Source of the DNA: Nocardioides zeae | GTDB lineage: Bacteria; Actinomycetota; Actinomycetes; Propionibacteriales; Nocardioidaceae | Reading direction: 5' to 3' | Assembly (NCBI RefSeq): GCF_030818655.1 | Contig: NZ_JAUTAN010000001.1 | Location: 3,410,001 to 3,474,000, forward strand | Length of the DNA stretch: 64,000 nt | Translations under genes and position numbers: made by a program | Notes under the pieces: generated by a model | What the model saw: only the letters and a program-made list of their open reading frames with translations | The model's database searches: none | Told to the model about the DNA's origin: nothing | Shown here: piece by piece, positions 46,163 to 59,749 of the stretch | Layout of the letters: each line of letters begins with the position of its first letter | How positions within the stretch are numbered: position 1 is the stretch's first letter

Positions 46163-49100
46163 GTGTCCGGGTCCGCGCGCCTCCGTCCCGTCGTCAGGGG
46201 CGGCCTCGCCCTCGTGCTCGTCCTCGTCGCCCTCGTCCTGACCGGCAGTCCGGCGCAGGCGACCAGCGGTCTCGAGGTCGGCATCCGGTTGACGTCCGGC
46301 AACACGTTGGCGTCGGGCACGCCGTTCGACTACGAGGTCGCGCTCGTGTGCACGCGCTCCCACGACGGCTGCGCGGACGTGGTGGCGCGGATCCCGCTGG
46401 GCGACGCCGCGGCGTACCAGCGGGGCGAGGAGCCCGGCACCGCCCCCGCCGGGCTGACGGTGACGCAGGCCGTCGAGGACGAGGCGCTGGTCGTCCGGCT
46501 CAGCGGCGGCCTGCCGGCCGGCGGCACCGCGCTCGCGCGGTTCTCGCTGACCCCGCCCAACGACACCACGCCCGACGGCACGAGCTGGGAGCTCGAGCCC
46601 ACGGCCACGAGCTCGAACGCGGGGACGAGCCGGCACGCGCCGCCGGGGTACGACGAGGGGGTCACCGCCCACGTCGACGCGACCACGACTGCCATCGCCC
46701 ACGTGGGCCTGCGGGACTCGTCGCTGCGTCGTCCCGGCGACGAGGTGACCTTCGACCTCCGCGTCTCCTGCGTGCAGCCCGACACGGGCAACTGGTTCCC
46801 CGGACGGCTCGAGATCAGGGCCGAGCTCGCCCGCGGGCTCACGCTCGTGCGTGCCACCCCGGCCGGCGCCCAGGTCGCGGGCCGCACGCTCACGTGGACG
46901 CCGGAGGGCGGCGCGCTCCCCGCCAGCTGCCGCGAGCGGGGCGCCGACGGCGCCGTGACCGGCACCGTCACGGCCCGGATCGACCAGGGCCAGACCGACC
47001 GCGCGCAGCTGCCGCTGTCGCTCCGCGTCACGCCCACGACGGCGGGCGGCGGTCACCGCTGGACGGGCGAGCCGGCGACCGACAGCGCCCAGGTCACCGT
47101 CATGGGCGCACCGGGTGCGAGCCCGGGCTCGCTGTTCGCCGGCGCCTTCGGCCAGGTCCGCACCAGCACCTCCGACGACGGCACGGCCGAGGACCGGTCG
47201 CAGGCGACCTACCCGGGCAACTGGCTGGGCGTGCTCCCGGCGCAGCCGGCGTTCTCGCTCGAGCAGTTCCAGCCCAACGGCGCGACGGGCCTCGCGCAGG
47301 CCGGCTTCAAGACCTCCTACAACAACATCGAGGACGGGTCGGGCTACGCCGTCGGGGTCGCCCAGCAGATGCCCTGCCTGGGCAGCGGCACGCGCCACGA
47401 GCCCTCCAGCGGCTCCTGCGCCCCCGCCTTCCACGCCACCACCGCGGCGCTGTGGGTCGACAACGACGCCGACGGGGCGACCGGTGAGGCCGTCCCCGGC
47501 AGCTACCGCGCGCGGGCGCTCCTCACCGACGGCCGCCGCGTCACCCTGCACCGCACCGGCGGCACGACGACGCTCGACGACCGCGGGCAGTGGGTGGGCT
47601 TCTCCGTGCCGGACTCCGCCGTCGGTCGGGTCCGCGCCATCGAGTTCCCCGCGAGCACGGGCATCGAGTCCTACACCATGAGCTGGGCCGTGTTCGGCTA
47701 CGTCGACCCCGAGGTCGACCCCGGCGAGGTCGTGGTGGCGCGGTCGGCTGCGTCCGCGACGTACGGCGACGACACCACCCAGCTGAGCAGCCGCGACGCC
47801 GTGCTCACCGTGGTCGCGCGGCCGCAGCTGGGCGTGGACGCGTCCTACGCCGCCGCCACCCTCCCCGAGGTCGGCGCCACCACGACGCTCGACGTCACGG
47901 GCAGCGCGCTCCTCCCGGCCGGCTCGAGCACCGACCTGGTGCTGGCGGAGCGGCTCCCCGAGGGCCTCGACTGGCACGGGAGCGTGCCGGCCACGCTGCC
48001 CGCGACGCTGGAGGTCACGAACCGGGCGGCTGGCCGCGGCCAGACGGTGACGGAGCGTGACGTCGAGCTGCCGCTGGTCGTCGCCCGCAACGCGGGCGGC
48101 AGCGGTCGCACGCTCGTGCGCGCCGTGCTCGACGCCGACGACCTCCCCGCCCAGGTGACGGACGAGGCCGGCGCCCGCGTGCGCCTGCAGCTGTCCCTCC
48201 CGGTGGTCGCGGAGCGACCCGGGCTCCTGGCGCACGAGGCGCGGCTCGTGGCGCCCGGCACGCCGATCTCCCAGGTGTGCGCGCAGCGGCCGGCCACGAC
48301 GTCGCGCTCGGTGCCGACCTCGGCGACCGGTCTGGCGCACACCGCGCCCGGCTGCCTCGCGACGAGCACCGTGCAGGTGGAGACCGGCGACGGCGCCGCC
48401 TCGTTCTCCGTCGACGTGCAGGTGCAGGGCGACGCCGACGAGGAGCCGAAGGCCGCCCCCTCGCTCGGGCTCGCCGATGACGGCGAGGCGACCTACACGC
48501 TGCGCTGGCGCAACACGGCGACGACGCCCCTGAAGGACGTGACGCTCGTCGACGTCCTCCCCACGCTCGACGACACGCTCCTCGCCGGGGCCGCGTCGGG
48601 CACGCCCCGCGGCAGCGGGTTCGAGGTCGAGCTGCTCGACGTCGAGGCGCCGACCGGGGTGCGCGTCGCCACGGCCGACGACAGCGACGTCTGCCACTCG
48701 CTCGGCACCGCGCCGCCGGCGGAGGGCTGCGCCGCGTGGCAGGACCGCGGTGACCTCGACGGGGCCCGCGCGCTGCGGCTGACGTCGGGCGCGACGTACG
48801 ACATCGGCGAGGGCTTCGACGTCACCCTCACCGTCGGCCTGCCCGACGACGCGGCCGTCGGCTCGGTCGCGTGGAACACCGCCGCCGCGACGGCGCGCAA
48901 CGCCTGGAGCGGCTCGACGCTGCCCCCGGTGGAGAGCGCCAAGGTGGGGCTGACGCCGTACGCCGCGACCCTGCCGCCGGTCGTGACGGTGGAGACGGAC
49001 CGGGCCTACGCGGGCCCCGGTGAGCCGGTGACCTACACGGTGCGGCTCGCGAACCCCGGCCCGCACCCGATCACCACGGCCGCCCCCGTCGGCACGCTGC

Positions 49101-50659
49101 CCGTCGGGCTCGACGTCGTCGGGGCCACCGCGGGCGCCGTCGTACGGCTGCTCCTCGACGTGGTCGACGGTCTGACCGGAGGGCTGCTCGGCCTGCCCTC
49201 GCTGCCGGAGCAGCCCGGCTTTGATCCCACGCAGCCGCGCAGCGCGGGCAGCGAGGTGACGTGGCCGCAGGTCGAGCTGGCGCCCTACGAGACGCGCGAC
49301 CTCCAGCTGACGGCCCAGCCCGACGCGTACTCCGCCGGCAGCCTCCTCAGCCGCTTCGTCGTCGAGGGCGCGATCCTGCCGAACCCCTGCCCCGAGGGCG
49401 CGGGCGTCTGCGCCGAGGTCAACGTGCCGTCGGGGCAGCTCACCGTCACGCACGAGGCGGAGGGCGACGGGGCGCCGCTGTACGCCGCCGGGCCGACCGC
49501 CGTCCGCGTCGACTGCGTGCGGGGCGGGGTGCCCGTGCACGGCTTCCCGCGCACGCTCCAGCTCACCGACGGCCAGGTCAGCGCGGCGCTGCCGGTGCCG
49601 TACGGCGCGGTCTGCTCCGGCGGCGTCACCCAGGACCAGGGCGCGACGGACGTGGCGGTGTCGCCCGCGACCGGCACCACGGTCACCCCGGAGGCGCCGC
49701 AGGGCGCGCTCGTCGTGACCACGCGCTTCGACCTGGCGCGGGTCGTCGTCGACCGGCGGGTGTCCGGCGTCGGGGCCGCGATGGCGCCGGCCCGGGCCCT
49801 CGTCTCCGTGACCTGCCGCTGGCGCGACCAGACCCTGCCGGGCTTCCCGATGCAGCTGCCGATGGCCCGGGGCGAGCGGGTCGGGCTCACCGCGCAGCTC
49901 CCCGTCGGCGCGCTCTGCACGTCGACGGAGGAGTCCGGCGCTCCCGCCGACGAGGTGCCGGGCGGCTCCGTGGTCGCGACCGCTGTCGCCGACGGAGAGA
50001 GCCTGCTGTCGACCCACGGCGTCTACTCGGCGGGCCGCGTGCGCGTCACCGCCGCCGACGACCTCGACGACGACGCGCGCGTCGCGGTCACCTGCCGCCG
50101 CGAGGGCGCGGTCGTGTGGTCCGGCGAGGTGCGGGTGGCCCCGGGCGCGACGGCCGTCGCCCGCAGCGGGGGCCGCGACGTGCTCCTGCCGGCCGGCACC
50201 GGCTGCGAGGCCGCGCCGACCGACCGGGCGCAGCGGGTGCGCGCGGGCGGTGCCCTCGCGGTCGCGGCCGACGGGGGCGCCCGGGTGCAGGACCTCGACC
50301 TCGTCGTCGGCGCCGCCCCCGCCGGCCAGGCGGCCGTGGGGGGCCTGCTCGACGCCGTCGGCCTCGGCGGGGCCCGCGGTCCCGGCGGCGTCGTCGGCCT
50401 CCCGGGGAACCTCGCCGACCCGTCGGTGACGGTCCCCGGCGCGGCGCCCGCCGGCCCGGTCCCGCCCGCCGGCGACCCGACGACGCGCACCACGACGGAC
50501 GACGACCCCGACGGCGAGCTCGGCCTGGCCGCCCCCGCGAGCAGCGAGGCGGACGACGCGGGGGACGGGGGCCGCGACGTACCGGTCCTCCCCCTCACCC
50601 TCGGCGGCCTCCTGCTCCTCGCCGCCGGCGCGCTCTGGACGCGGTTCCGGCTGCGCTGA
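46163..50659 (+). CDS. Large secreted surface protein with DUF11/DUF5979-like repeats
   Basis: 1498 residues from GTG 46163. Signal peptide about 1-33 (LALVLVLVALVLTGSPAQA). A long beta-sandwich stalk follows, including DUF11-like segments (LRWRNTATTPLKDVTLVDVLP; VTYTVRLANPGPHPITTAAPVGTLPVGLDVV). Three or so DUF5979-like modules lie at about 1095-1400, each with a (V/R)VxCxxxG...FP core and paired Cys. The C-terminus has one hydrophobic anchor (LPLTLGGLLLLAAGALW) and a short basic tail; LPLTL resembles, but is not, a canonical LPXTG. Likely a wall-spanning adhesin or pilin-like protein. It follows the PBP gene after 185 bases. Confidence 0.82.
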   Translation: MSGSARLRPVVRGGLALVLVLVALVLTGSPAQATSGLEVGIRLTSGNTLASGTPFDYEVALVCTRSHDGCADVVARIPLGDAAAYQRGEEPGTAPAGLTVTQAVEDEALVVRLSGGLPAGGTALARFSLTPPNDTTPDGTSWELEPTATSSNAGTSRHAPPGYDEGVTAHVDATTTAIAHVGLRDSSLRRPGDEVTFDLRVSCVQPDTGNWFPGRLEIRAELARGLTLVRATPAGAQVAGRTLTWTPEGGALPASCRERGADGAVTGTVTARIDQGQTDRAQLPLSLRVTPTTAGGGHRWTGEPATDSAQVTVMGAPGASPGSLFAGAFGQVRTSTSDDGTAEDRSQATYPGNWLGVLPAQPAFSLEQFQPNGATGLAQAGFKTSYNNIEDGSGYAVGVAQQMPCLGSGTRHEPSSGSCAPAFHATTAALWVDNDADGATGEAVPGSYRARALLTDGRRVTLHRTGGTTTLDDRGQWVGFSVPDSAVGRVRAIEFPASTGIESYTMSWAVFGYVDPEVDPGEVVVARSAASATYGDDTTQLSSRDAVLTVVARPQLGVDASYAAATLPEVGATTTLDVTGSALLPAGSSTDLVLAERLPEGLDWHGSVPATLPATLEVTNRAAGRGQTVTERDVELPLVVARNAGGSGRTLVRAVLDADDLPAQVTDEAGARVRLQLSLPVVAERPGLLAHEARLVAPGTPISQVCAQRPATTSRSVPTSATGLAHTAPGCLATSTVQVETGDGAASFSVDVQVQGDADEEPKAAPSLGLADDGEATYTLRWRNTATTPLKDVTLVDVLPTLDDTLLAGAASGTPRGSGFEVELLDVEAPTGVRVATADDSDVCHSLGTAPPAEGCAAWQDRGDLDGARALRLTSGATYDIGEGFDVTLTVGLPDDAAVGSVAWNTAAATARNAWSGSTLPPVESAKVGLTPYAATLPPVVTVETDRAYAGPGEPVTYTVRLANPGPHPITTAAPVGTLPVGLDVVGATAGAVVRLLLDVVDGLTGGLLGLPSLPEQPGFDPTQPRSAGSEVTWPQVELAPYETRDLQLTAQPDAYSAGSLLSRFVVEGAILPNPCPEGAGVCAEVNVPSGQLTVTHEAEGDGAPLYAAGPTAVRVDCVRGGVPVHGFPRTLQLTDGQVSAALPVPYGAVCSGGVTQDQGATDVAVSPATGTTVTPEAPQGALVVTTRFDLARVVVDRRVSGVGAAMAPARALVSVTCRWRDQTLPGFPMQLPMARGERVGLTAQLPVGALCTSTEESGAPADEVPGGSVVATAVADGESLLSTHGVYSAGRVRVTAADDLDDDARVAVTCRREGAVVWSGEVRVAPGATAVARSGGRDVLLPAGTGCEAAPTDRAQRVRAGGALAVAADGGARVQDLDLVVGAAPAGQAAVGGLLDAVGLGGARGPGGVVGLPGNLADPSVTVPGAAPAGPVPPAGDPTTRTTTDDDPDGELGLAAPASSEADDAGDGGRDVPVLPLTLGGLLLLAAGALWTRFRLR

Positions 50660-55194: not shown

Positions 55195-58100
55195 TCAGCG
55201 ACCCGTCGTCGTCACCCACAGGGAGCGCGACCGCGTGACGGTCCGGTAGGCCGGGTCCTCGGGCACGAAGACGATCCTGACCTGCCAGTTGCCCCGCGAC
55301 GGCAGCACCGGGGTGGCCATGCGGGTCGTGCGCCCCTCGTAGGTCCACGCCCGCGCCAGCACGCGGCTCGTGCCGACCTGGCGCGCGGTGACGAACACCG
55401 TGCCGCGGACCCGCTTGCCGTCGTGCCCCGCCAGCCAGAGGGAGAAGCCCTTGGCGCGCCCGGCGGTGCCGTACGCCGCCAGCGGGTCCCACCGCACCGT
55501 GCTGCCGACCGCGACCGAGCCCGGGGCGGGCGTCGACGGGGGTGACGGTGAGCGTCGCCTCGGCGCTGGTGACCGTCCCGGCGGAGCTGGTGGCGACGGC
55601 CCGGTAGCGCGTGCCGGACGCGCCCACCGCGACCGACCGGAGCAGGAGCGTCGGGCCCTCCGCGCCGGCCACGTCGTTCCAGGCCCCGCCGTCGGACCGC
55701 ACCTGCCAGCGCACCGTCGGCGCGGGCTCGCCGGCGACCGCCACGGTGAAGGTGGCGTCCTGACCGGCGCGGACACCGACGTCGACCGGCTGCCGGGTGA
55801 TGGACGGGGCGACGGTCCCCGGACCGCCCACGGGCACGGCGTCGCCGAGGTCCACCGTGAACGGCGCCGCCGGCTTGCGGGGATCGGCGGCGCCGCCGCT
55901 GGAGTACCAGTACGACGCGAGCCCGGTGCGTCCGTGAACGTCGACGAACTCCTGCGGCCAGGAGCCCCACCCGGCCCCGGTGCGGTCCTGGACCGCGTGG
56001 TCCGGCGGGGTGACCACCTCGACCCCCGCGTAGTCGGGCACGACCTCGACGACGCCCGCGGGATCGATCTCCACCCCGGAGAACGTCGCGACGGTGACGT
56101 CGGGGACCGGCTCCAGCGGCGTGCGGGTGCCGGGGTCCGACAGCGACGAGGCGTAGCCGCTGATGTCCGCGGTCAGCTCGCCGGTGCCGTCGGCCGCCAC
56201 CGTCAGCACGGGATCGGTCAGGGTGAAGGGCACCAGCCCGTCGTAGAAGTTCACCGACCACGCGCCGTCCCAGCGCACGATCGCCGTGCCGTCGGCCTCG
56301 AGCTCGGCGAGGCCGCCCCCGAGCCGGGCGACCTGCGTGACGTCACCGGACGTCTGCGCCGCCCGGGTGTCCCAGGTGGCCGCGGCCTCGGAGCCGTCCG
56401 CCGCCACGTGCAGGATCTCGACGTCGCCCGCGCTCGCGGCGTACGTCGCCGGCTCGCCGTCCGAGACCCCTGCGCTGAAGTAGCTCGACGAGCCGAACGG
56501 CGGCCGGGCCTGCAGCTCGGCGGAGCCCGACCAGTCGAGCACGACGCCCTTGAGGTCGAGGCCCTCCTCGGGCACCTCGACCGCCGGGGTGACGGTCAGC
56601 GTCGCGGTGCGGGTGGTCGTCGTGCCGGCGGTGTTCACCGCCCGTGCTCGGAACTGTGCGCCCGACTGCTCCACCTCCGTCGCCCGCACCGTGAGGGTCG
56701 AGCTGCCCTCGGCGGACGCGACCAGCACGTCGTCGTCGGGCACCACGTCGGCCCAGAAGCCGTCGACGCGACGCTGCCAGGTCACGGTCGGCTCGGGGTG
56801 GCCGGTGGTGAGCACGGAGAAGCTGGCGGGCGAGCCCGCGGTGGCGATCACGGAGGTCGGCGGCGCGACCACCACCGGGATGCTCTCCACGGTGAGCGCG
56901 GCCTCGGCCGACGGGACCGACCCGGCCGCGTTGGTGTGGACCGCACGGTAGACGGACCCCTGGCTCGCGGCGTCCGCGACCACCTCCAGCGTCGTCCCCG
57001 TGCCGCCGGGGACGTCGACGAACCGCGAGCTGCCGGGGGCCTTGACCTGCCAGCGGGTGGTGGGCGCGGGCGTACCGGTCGCCTCCGCCGTGAACGAGGC
57101 CGGCGCGGTGCCGCCGGCCGTGCCGATGCGCACGGTGCGGGGCTCCGGCTGCGTGGTGGGGGTCGGCACGATGCCGTCGAGCGCGAAACCCACGTAGCCG
57201 TGGCCGTACGGCGTGTCCCAGGTGTAGGCCTCGCCGTCGCTGCCCTGGGCCCACACCGTGCCGTCGCCGGGCACGACGAGCCCGGCGGACCGGGCGCTCA
57301 GCAGGTCGTCGCGACGGTCGAGGACGACGCGGCCGTCCCGGACGAGCACGAGCCGCTGGGTGCTGGCCGTCTGGCCCCACACCGAGCCGTCCGCCGGGTC
57401 GATCTCGTAGTCGTCGACGAGGCGGGGCGCCAGGTCCACCCAGTCACCGACGGGCTCGATGGTCCCGGCGGCGGTGAGGCGGTAGCTGCGCACGGCCGAC
57501 CGGACGTCGTCGAAGTAGAGCGAGCCCTGCGTGGCGAGGGCGACGTGGCCCTGCGGGGTCGTGAGCACGCCCACGGCCCGCGGGCTCTCGCTGCCGGGCA
57601 GGTCGGTGACCTGGGCCGCGCCGTCGACGACGGCGATGCGGCGGACCGGGGTCGCGAGCGCGGTGGTCGAGCCGGTCGGTGTGTAGGAGATCTGCTTGAG
57701 GAGGAGCGAGCCGTCCGCCGCCACCTTGACCGCGCCACCGGTGAAGGTGGCGGCCATGGTCGCGTAGGCGAAGCGGTTCGCGCGGGACTCCGACGCGGTC
57801 GGCAGCGGGTAGCGCTCCTCCGCGAGGCTGCCGTCCTCCTGCAGCGTCAGCACGTTGAGGAACCAGAGGTGCTGCTCGAAGGCGCTGCTCGCGACCCCGG
57901 CCGGCACCTCGCGGTTGACTGTCAGGAGGCGGTCACGCTGCTCGTCCCAGACGGCGAGGGTCTGGTTGGGACGGCGGGTGAGCGGCACCGCCAGGGTGCC
58001 CGTGCGGTAGGTCCGCGCCTCCGGGTCCCACGCCAGGTAGGAGTCCACCGGGGCGGTCGCCCCGGACGCGGAGGCGAACCAGATGCGCTGGCGCTCGCGG

Positions 58101-59080
58101 TCGACGACGTACGGCGCGCTCCCCGCCCGTCCCGGCACCACGACGGGCTCGCCGAGCGGCTGCATCGTGCGCAGGTCGAGCGCCTGGGCGACGGTGGTGT
58201 TCGTGTCGTCGGACCACCGGGCGTGCACGATGCCCCGCTCGGGGTCCTCCCACAGCGGCTCCTGCCACACCTGCATGAGGTCCTTCACGAGGACGGCCGA
58301 GCCCGTGCGGGTGACCGCGGCGGTGCCGGGCTCGTCCCACGACTCCGAGAGGTCGGGGGCCCCGCCCTCGCCGACGTAGGTCACGCTGACGGGGTCGAGC
58401 GTCTGGCCCGCGCGGTACTGGTTGCCGAAGACCTCCCGCGCCGGGTAGTCGGGCAGCGCGCTCGGGATGCCGCTCCACGCGACGGTGCCGTCGTCGAGCG
58501 TCGGCGCCAGGCCGCTGACGTCGAGGTCGGCCATGACGATGCGGCCGTGGTCGACGACCTCCCACGTGCCGGCGTCGCGCGCGACGACCTCGGCGGTCAG
58601 CGTGGAGCCGTCCGGGCCGATCGTGACCTCGGGGTCCTCGAGCAGGACGTCGAGGACGTAGAGCTCCGTCGACCCCTCCCAGCCCGCCGGCGGGTCGATG
58701 AGGTGCGCCTCCTTCGGGTACCAGTGCCCCCGCCAGTGCACGGCCCCGTCGAAGGAGAGCGACGTGGTGCCGGTCTCCGCGTCGTACGAGCCGGCGACGA
58801 GGGGCCACTGGTACTCCCCCGCGTCGTTGACGGAGACCGTGTCGTCCCAGACGGACTCGGCGGCCGTGTAGGTGCGCCACGAGGCCTTCATGCCCCACGT
58901 CAGCTGACCGGTGGTCACGGGCGCGCCGAGCGCGCTGGGCGCGGCGGGCGGGCTCGCCGCCAGCGCCGGGGCGGGCGCCGGGCCCGCGAGGCCCGCCAGG
59001 GGGGCGAGCAGGAGCGTGCCGAGGGCGGCGCTCCCGAGACGTCGGAGGGGGCGCGCGGGGCGCGCGGTCGTGCTGGTCAC
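55195..59080 (-). pseudogene. Giant secreted HtaA/Ig-domain protein (haem-binding type), frameshifted near C-terminus
   Basis: Start GTG 59080 with GAGGAG eight bases upstream. Signal peptide about 1-42. HtaA domain 1 about 58-235 (GQLTWGMKASWRTYTA...GGSYD-like AGSYDAETGTTSLSF). A beta-propeller-like region runs about 240-635. Two Ig-like domains lie at about 640-825 (TRWQVKAPGS; TVTWQRRVDG). HtaA domain 2 is about 835-1075 (VLDWSGSAEL...TLTDPVLTVAADGTGELTADISGY). Ig-like 3 is about 1083-1180, then a last domain continues in a second frame (GSVAVGSTVRWDPLAAYG...SRSLWVTTTGR). One extra base in the G run 55538-55542 explains the shift; corrected length 1294 residues. HtaA domains bind haem in corynebacterial uptake systems. 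No membrane anchor is seen. Confidence 0.85.
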
Positions 59081-59167
59081 CGTGGTGCTCCTCGTGGGCG
59101 GTGTGCTGGGGGCGGGCCCGACGGACGGGCGCCCGACACCGGTGGCGTCGGGCACCCGTCGGCGGGA

Positions 59168-59659
59168 TCAGAACGCGAGGTCGACGTAGGTCGTGCTGAC
59201 GGGCACGTACGCCGCGGTGTAGGTCTGCACGACGAGGACGCAGTCGTCGGGACCGATCGACCCGCAGTCGGTGTCGGGCGAGCTGGGCGAGAGGCCCGGC
59301 ACGAAGCTCGTGTTCGTGAAGAGCTGCTCGACCGCGAGCGTCCGGGTGACGGTGCCCGACGCGGGGACGGTGGTGCTGACGGCGCCGGCCGCCTTGCACG
59401 AGCGGCCGAGCGGGACGTCGTTCTTGTCGCACTGCGCGATGGAGTAGCGCGCCTCGGTGGCCGGGTCGAACGTGACCGTGACGGTGACCGTGTCCGAGGT
59501 GGCCAGGCCCGTCGTCGGCGTGGTCGCGACGACGGTGGCGGCCTGCGCGGGCGCGGCCAGGAGGGCGGCGCCGACGGCGAGGCCGGCGGCGCCGGCGAGC
59601 AGGGCGCCGCGGCGGACGTGGGCGCGCGGCGAGGGAGTGGGACGCGGAGAGGGACGCAT
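59168..59659 (-). CDS. Secreted neocarzinostatin-like protein
   Basis: 163 residues, ATG preceded by GGAGG. Long signal peptide (RRGALLAGAAGLAVGAALLAAPAQA). The mature part (VVATTPTTGLATSDTVTVTVT...YSIAQCDKNDVPLGRSC...TRTLAVEQLFTNTSF...DTDCGSIGPDDCVLVV...TYVDLAF) follows the neocarzinostatin-family beta-sandwich, including two short disulfide loops (Cys pairs 11 and 8 residues apart). It is first in an iron-controlled pair with the HtaA protein, 87 bases apart. A small haem-shuttle or surface role is inferred; binding of an enediyne is not implied. Confidence 0.82.
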   Translation of the reverse strand: MRPSPRPTPSPRAHVRRGALLAGAAGLAVGAALLAAPAQAATVVATTPTTGLATSDTVTVTVTFDPATEARYSIAQCDKNDVPLGRSCKAAGAVSTTVPASGTVTRTLAVEQLFTNTSFVPGLSPSSPDTDCGSIGPDDCVLVVQTYTAAYVPVSTTYVDLAF

Positions 59660-59730
59660 GGTGGACCTCCGTGGGATGGCGGCGGTTGCCGCGACCCAGG
59701 TGTGCGGACCCGATGACCGCAGCCTGTGAG

Positions 59731-59749
59731 TTAGGTAAGGCTTACCTGA
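59731..59749. promoter_or_regulatory. DtxR/IdeR iron box
   Basis: TTAGGTAAGGCTTACCTGA matches the 19-bp DtxR/IdeR consensus TTAGGTTAGGCTAACCTAA at 16 of 19 positions and is itself a near-perfect palindrome. It lies 71 bases before the ATG of the neocarzinostatin-like gene. It predicts repression in iron-replete cells and induction in iron starvation for the pair downstream. Confidence 0.9.

Follow-up and report, generated by a model that had tools for sequence, protein, structure and literature searches.

The window, by which the whole 64-kb stretch of Nocardioides zeae DNA is meant, carries on its minus strand a small gene followed by a giant gene, with an iron box in front of the pair and a hairpin between the two coding regions. 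The features are given here in the direction of reading of the minus strand.

59731-59749, minus strand: DtxR/IdeR-type iron box, agreeing at 16 of 19 positions with the 19-bp sequence that we take to be the consensus
59168-59659, minus strand: secreted neocarzinostatin-fold protein of 163 aa, assigned by PF00960, with secretion judged by eye
59124-59160, minus strand: intergenic hairpin between the small and giant genes, with a 17-bp stem and no U run
55535-59080, minus strand: giant CR/Ig protein up to a frame change, 1182 codons, assigned by domains and homology
58361-58930, minus strand: HtaA/CR domain 1 of the giant protein, PF04213 at E 4.8e-35, with the motifs SWRTY (Ser, axial Tyr), GH and QY
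57164-58360, minus strand: region called a propeller in the initial annotation, with no fold assigned
56591-57148, minus strand: two Ig-like domains with approximate boundaries, from I-set/Ig_3 and PDB Ig matches
55817-56578, minus strand: CR-fold domain 2, with a fold closest to the haemoglobin receptor HbpA, from a structure model
55541-55825, minus strand: third Ig-like domain, from PDB Ig matches at residues 1086-1179
55195-55515, minus strand: C-terminal end of the giant protein, read in another frame than the rest, with 95% identity to the N. zeae C-terminus, which is in frame there, and a dN/dS of 0.17

The iron box, TTAGGTAAGGCTTACCTGA, differs at 3 positions from the 19-bp DtxR/IdeR consensus assumed for scoring, and the ATG of the small gene lies 71 bases downstream. 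Nothing else in the window comes within 3 mismatches of this consensus, and no such match was found in 100 dinucleotide shuffles. Across the 4.38-Mb genome, nine sites, this one included, lie within 2 mismatches of TTAGGNNAGSCTNNCCTAA, as against a single site for the reversed control pattern. Clear iron genes lie next to six of the eight other sites: those for a FecCD permease, the haem oxygenase, a ferritin-like protein and three proteins of the Peripla_BP_2 family. At the other two sites the neighbours are a pyridoxal-dependent decarboxylase and a protein whose DUF2470 match stays under the cut-off, both presumably of kinds linked to iron. The genome encodes one Fe-dependent repressor gene, and the two marks of a DtxR/IdeR regulon, a 19-bp box ahead of the gene and a regulator encoded by the same genome, are thereby both present. 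The iron box reported in the initial annotation, and the secreted neocarzinostatin-like protein placed downstream of it, are thus upheld. In the N. zeae relative the box is identical, as are its flanks down to the ATG, and the comparison consequently reveals no conserved island there.

The small protein matches PF00960 (Neocarzinostat) at 40.9 bits, where the cut-off is 25, and displays a signal peptide by eye. It contains four Cys in two pairs, which presumably form the disulphides of the neocarzinostatin family, and Tyr147 is positioned seven residues past the last Cys. The structure model has a mean pLDDT of only 63, with values mostly of 70-82 in the blocks that contain strands. Its fold matches include an enediyne complex and testosterone-binding mutants of neocarzinostatin; beyond the family, the structural matches are ordinary beta-sandwich domains, such as Fn3 monobodies. 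The features by which the family is recognized, namely a PF00960 score above the cut-off, the fold and two Cys pairs, are all found. The protein resembles the macromomycin, C-1027 and kedarcidin apoproteins in fold, Cys pairs, size and secretion, but differs from them in its iron box, its CR partner and the His/Tyr in the loop past the last Cys. It also scores 48.6 bits on the enediyne chromoprotein equivalog NF040680, below the model cut-off of 86.

The giant protein, for which a GTG start at 59080 and a signal peptide were deduced by eye, was originally described as containing two HtaA domains separated by propeller- and Ig-like domains. Domain 1 scores 122 bits against PF04213 (cut-off 24) and aligns to the solved CR domains PDB 6jsa, 9o0k and 8smu. 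Residues S17, Y21 and Y172, corresponding to the Ser, the axial Tyr and the second or propionate Tyr, are invariant in all 16 rows of the alignment; their roles in CR domains are treated in excerpts of PMC12494546. The assignment of a second HtaA domain stands at the level of predicted fold but not in Pfam, as domain 2 has no match to PF04213 and domain 1 is the single PF04213 stretch of the giant protein. The structure model of domain 2 (pLDDT 92) matches CR-fold structures, the best being the HbpA haemoglobin receptor of C. diphtheriae (PDB 9bcj, 9bch) at 16% identity, and no sequence-profile match links domain 2 to HbpA. A profile search of the PDB with domain 2 returned one match only, an unrelated surface protein at E 0.41. 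Profile-profile comparison of domain 2 with the CR domain gave a probability of 87 and an E-value of 3.7e-6 over 77 columns, and some proteins that hold domain 2 homologues match PF04213 weakly. Domain 2 also has homologues among the genes of this genome's Hmu-type locus. No Tyr is seen by eye at the CR axial position, a place that the profile alignment stops short of. The Ig-like domains are borne out by I-set matches. The propeller is not: in the window copy, region 57164-58360 matches no Pfam family at E<=0.1, and its best PDB profile match has an E-value of 0.016.

The length of about 1294 residues first given for the giant protein silently bridges a frame change near 55.5 kb. The frame holding the HtaA and Ig domains loses homology there, and the conserved C-terminal stretch falls in another frame, in the ORF 55195-55776. 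In the N. zeae relative, the giant gene is one continuous frame of 1296 codons, and hydropathy measured on that protein reveals no hydrophobic tail at its C-terminus. Because of the identity and the dN/dS of the stretch after the change, the change is taken to be either recent or a sequencing error; the window copy of the giant gene may be partly broken. In comparison with the N. zeae relative, the dN/dS is 0.23 for the small gene and 0.23 for the giant gene, and lower, 0.09, for the neighbouring PP2C gene.

The 90-base stretch around the intergenic hairpin folds with -48.7 kcal/mol (z -3.6), and none of 200 shuffles reaches so low a value. The stem is kept in the N. zeae relative with two one-sided changes that preserve pairing, according to an alignment read by eye. 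Perhaps the hairpin sets the ratio of small to giant protein.

A scan with three giant proteins yielded 20 loci, 15 of which (L115-L127, L129 and L134) combine a CR domain with an HbpA-like one in a single frame. The loci span Nocardioides, Pimelobacter, Aeromicrobium, Microbacterium, Kocuria, Jonesia, Corynebacterium mendelii and Conexibacter. The small gene lies directly upstream of the giant gene in 13 of the 15 (it is absent in L116 and L123), and a box within 4 mismatches lies upstream in 10 (all except L116, L117, L126, L129 and L134); the counts are dependent, as L118/L114 and L119/L102 are on the same contigs and L121/L195 are taken to be so. A PF00960 match at E<=0.1 was obtained for 11 of 13 aligned small proteins. 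The small proteins of the 15-locus set were first seen by gene calls, and 12 of the 13 are themselves rows of the profile that scores them. Looser boxes were compared with mononucleotide shuffles: Conexibacter L117 has one of 5 mismatches, equalled by none of 200 shuffles, Kocuria L126 and Jonesia L134 have boxes of 6 mismatches (8/200 and 13/200), C. mendelii L129 one of 7 (65/200) and Conexibacter L116 one of 8 (70/200). Giant CR proteins without the small gene occur in the same genus (L100, L101, L103 and L104), and strong matches to the small-protein profile were found in just 3 of the 145 genomes of the relatives set, own genome included. The initial annotation had made its proposal depend on conservation of the pair and its iron box, and this conservation holds beyond the Nocardioidaceae.

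A second arrangement is found in genus g3 of the same order, where 11 genomes have a PF00960 match. Neocarzinostatin and HtaA domains share one open frame in seven of them, two of the seven proteins having been checked. The same seven genomes encode a solitary small protein elsewhere, in each case (7/7) with a box of 2-3 mismatches just upstream and with no CR match in roughly 3 kb around it. These solitary neocarzinostatin-like proteins (L138-L144) are about 168-170 aa long.

A profile of 17 small proteins was then run across the class, against 394 genomes, and gave matches at E<=1e-5 in 87. Sixty regions around the better matches of a longer list were taken, of which 59 gave a match again (L220 did not). 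Among these 59 loci, drawn from the better regions of the longer list, a CR or HbpA-like domain lies within 5 kb in 27, and a box (4 mismatches or fewer, up to 400 bases upstream of the match) is present in 28. Both occur in 21 loci, CR alone in 6, the box alone in 7 and neither in 25, that is, one or both in 34; the Fisher p of 2e-5 is, like the other p-values, descriptive only, because the query proteins had been picked for their linkage and the relatives do not form an independent sample. As the profile itself derives from linked proteins, linkage in close relatives is partly circular. Among the box-only loci, L208 does have a CR domain, at a distance of 6.6 kb, and the contigs of L224 and L235 are short. 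Away from the matches, the same loci contain 2 boxes in 778,385 bases, so that a box would be expected by chance in 0.06 of the 59 loci. Counted by genus, 11 of 24 have a CR link or a box and 13 have neither.

The idea that neocarzinostatin proteins are generally linked to iron was rejected, as no box of 4 mismatches or fewer occurs over the 20 kb of any of the loci L076-L085. These are neocarzinostatin-family paralogues with LPxTG-like tails (at about 9.7-10.5 kb in each locus of the genus), and nine of the ten adjoin a long permease-like gene by eye. Genus g40, with genomes of 1.3 Mb, encodes small neocarzinostatin-like proteins with a DH motif past the last Cys (L219, L227, L241 and L253); neither an iron box nor a CR match was found in 20 kb around them. 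In six loci (L225, L226, L229 and L231-L233), open frames of about 2500-2650 codons encode three CR domains and one HbpA-like domain, and each of these giants adjoins a small neocarzinostatin-like gene with an iron box.

In neocarzinostatin, the loop past the last Cys and the loop ahead of the third Cys both line the chromophore cleft. A His is found 5-10 residues past the last Cys in 31 of the 34 loci linked to a CR domain or a box, compared with 14 of 25 unlinked loci (p 0.004), and the region around the last Cys typically reads CVVGTRADHT. Two of the three linked loci without this His (L245 and L249) have a Tyr at +7, the same place as Tyr147 of the window protein, which brings the linked loci with His or Tyr to 33 of 34, the Tyr having been added to the criterion after the data were seen. 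The unlinked loci that lack the His number 11, and a Tyr, at +5, is present in one of them (L213). In the other loop, N-x-H precedes the place of the third Cys in 9 of 13 rows from giant-bearing loci, the window, L115, L119 and L125 being the exceptions. The His/Tyr past the last Cys is the candidate ligand of the small protein. Binding of haem by the small protein is a good hypothesis, suggested indirectly by the iron box, the CR linkage and the conserved His/Tyr. The mature part of the window protein contains no His, only Tyr, which weakens the case for haem binding by this copy, and the retention of the His in 14 of the 25 unlinked loci fits the hypothesis poorly.

The 13 FecCD permease matches of the genome all fall outside the window, in agreement with the original statement that no HmuTUV-type transporter is linked to the pair. 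The genome does have an Hmu-type locus at 1.816-1.825 Mb, with haem oxygenase, FecCD permease and HtaA-like genes. In Pimelobacter (P. simplex), the pair is transcribed away from an Hmu-type operon that comprises Peripla_BP_2, FecCD and ATPase genes together with CR-type ones (checked by Pfam), and it is likewise divergent from an operon of this kind in N. carbamazepini and Nocardioides sp. LHD-245 (from gene reading). The same orientation relative to a Peripla_BP_2/FecCD operon is seen in a Propionibacteriales MAG (checked by Pfam) and in Aeromicrobium (from gene reading). The description of the pair as a distinct module without a transporter must accordingly be given up: in some relatives the pair adjoins importer operons, and domain 2 has homologues within the Hmu-type locus of this genome. 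The position next to importers in relatives leads us to regard the pair as an outpost of Hmu-type uptake and not as a separate system. Hmu-type loci (haem oxygenase, HmuTUV, HtaA/B) share with it the kind of box and the CR families, but no importer lies beside the pair in the window or in the N. zeae relative.

A comparison with the Corynebacterium HtaA/ChtA haemophores reveals a similar combination of features: a PF04213 CR domain (domain 1) with the Ser, the axial Tyr and the second Tyr, a DtxR/IdeR-type box, secretion, and, for domain 2 of the giant protein, a CR fold as well. The giant protein differs in its Ig-rich architecture, its HbpA-like second domain, here joined with a haem-type CR domain in one protein, and its neocarzinostatin-fold partner gene. 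The N. zeae giant protein also lacks the hydrophobic C-terminal tail; such a tail is present in the relatives from Microbacterium, Kocuria and C. mendelii.

The associations give good support to a place of the pair in haem/iron acquisition. We consider it probable, though by a distance not certain, that the two genes form an extracellular haem-acquisition unit of the HtaA (CR) kind, induced by iron starvation, in which the small partner acts as carrier. Against this count the 25 small-protein loci with neither CR link nor box, the CR giants that occur alone, the five of 15 loci with no box of 4 mismatches or fewer, the rarity of the small protein in the relatives set, the frame change, and a dN/dS of the pair above that of the PP2C gene. 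In the anticipated sequence of events, DtxR/IdeR with Fe(II) would occupy the box and repress the pair, and both genes would be transcribed together when iron is short, the hairpin probably raising the amount of the small secreted protein above that of its giant partner. The latter would offer one Tyr-ligating CR domain for haem, with Ig spacers, and its HbpA-like domain would lend itself more to docking a protein loaded with haem than to holding haem itself. The small protein would most likely work in solution, binding haem or some other iron ligand and carrying it to the CR protein or away from it. Haem would then pass to the Hmu-type importer and the haem oxygenase encoded elsewhere in the genome.

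The small protein could alternatively be a structural Ig-like companion or chaperone without a small ligand, with the giant protein carrying out all haem capture. The neocarzinostatin fold is an Ig-like sandwich, the structures that rank below the family members in the comparison are common beta-sandwich domains, fusions with CR and Ig domains exist, and the window copy lacks His. A mere companion is nevertheless hard to reconcile with the solitary g3 copies, which in seven of seven genomes have an iron box to themselves and lack a CR match over roughly 3 kb, with the box-only loci of the 59 (subject to the caveats on L208, L224 and L235), and with the His or Tyr of the linked loci, the Tyr being post hoc; the companion role is possible, but we doubt it. 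The solitary copies speak as well for binding of a siderophore or another iron ligand in place of haem, CR adjacency then reflecting a shared iron regulon. Such a role would suit a fold that serves as a small-molecule carrier, as the enediyne complex and the testosterone-binding mutants among the matches illustrate, and the importers in Aeromicrobium and the Propionibacteriales MAG are of the Peripla_BP_2/FecCD type with no haem oxygenase nearby by eye. It is rendered unlikely by the 27 of 59 loci that have a CR domain no more than 5 kb away and by the CR fusion in seven genomes.

The frame change near 55.5 kb, set against the continuous gene of the N. zeae relative, might also mark the locus as a decaying relic that is no longer used in this strain. 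The dN/dS values of both genes and of the stretch after the frame change, together with the retention of box and hairpin, point away from decay, and a sequencing error in a GC-rich stretch would look alike; we hold this to be quite improbable. Least credible is an enediyne antibiotic apoprotein unrelated to haem. The family, the fold and a score on the NCBIfam enediyne chromoprotein model would agree with it, but that score falls well under the cut-off, and the iron box and CR partner, which recur elsewhere, make it very improbable.

According to excerpts of PMC12494546, two haemophore types are known in Gram-positive bacteria, CR and NEAT. No open-licence paper was found that links the neocarzinostatin family to HtaA or to heme and iron regulation, and excerpts from part of the open-licence literature on the HtaA domain in actinobacteria make no mention of a neocarzinostatin-fold partner. 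If the carrier reading is correct, the iron-controlled neocarzinostatin-fold partner would be a third kind of haemophore or at least a component so far missing from haem uptake by CR proteins, the fold familiar from enediyne antibiotics would have another natural role, and an HbpA-like fold would be placed in actinobacteria far from Corynebacterium. A broader proposal, which is tentative and in our view somewhat unlikely, is that a branch of the neocarzinostatin fold, previously known as a carrier of antibiotics, comprises iron-regulated secreted binders of haem or iron ligands that are widespread in actinobacteria, with or without a CR partner and with a His/Tyr in the cleft-lining loop, and would constitute a third Gram-positive haemophore fold beside CR and NEAT.

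Elsewhere in the window, an open frame of 1498 aa at 46163-50659 on the plus strand likewise has a counterpart in the N. zeae locus.
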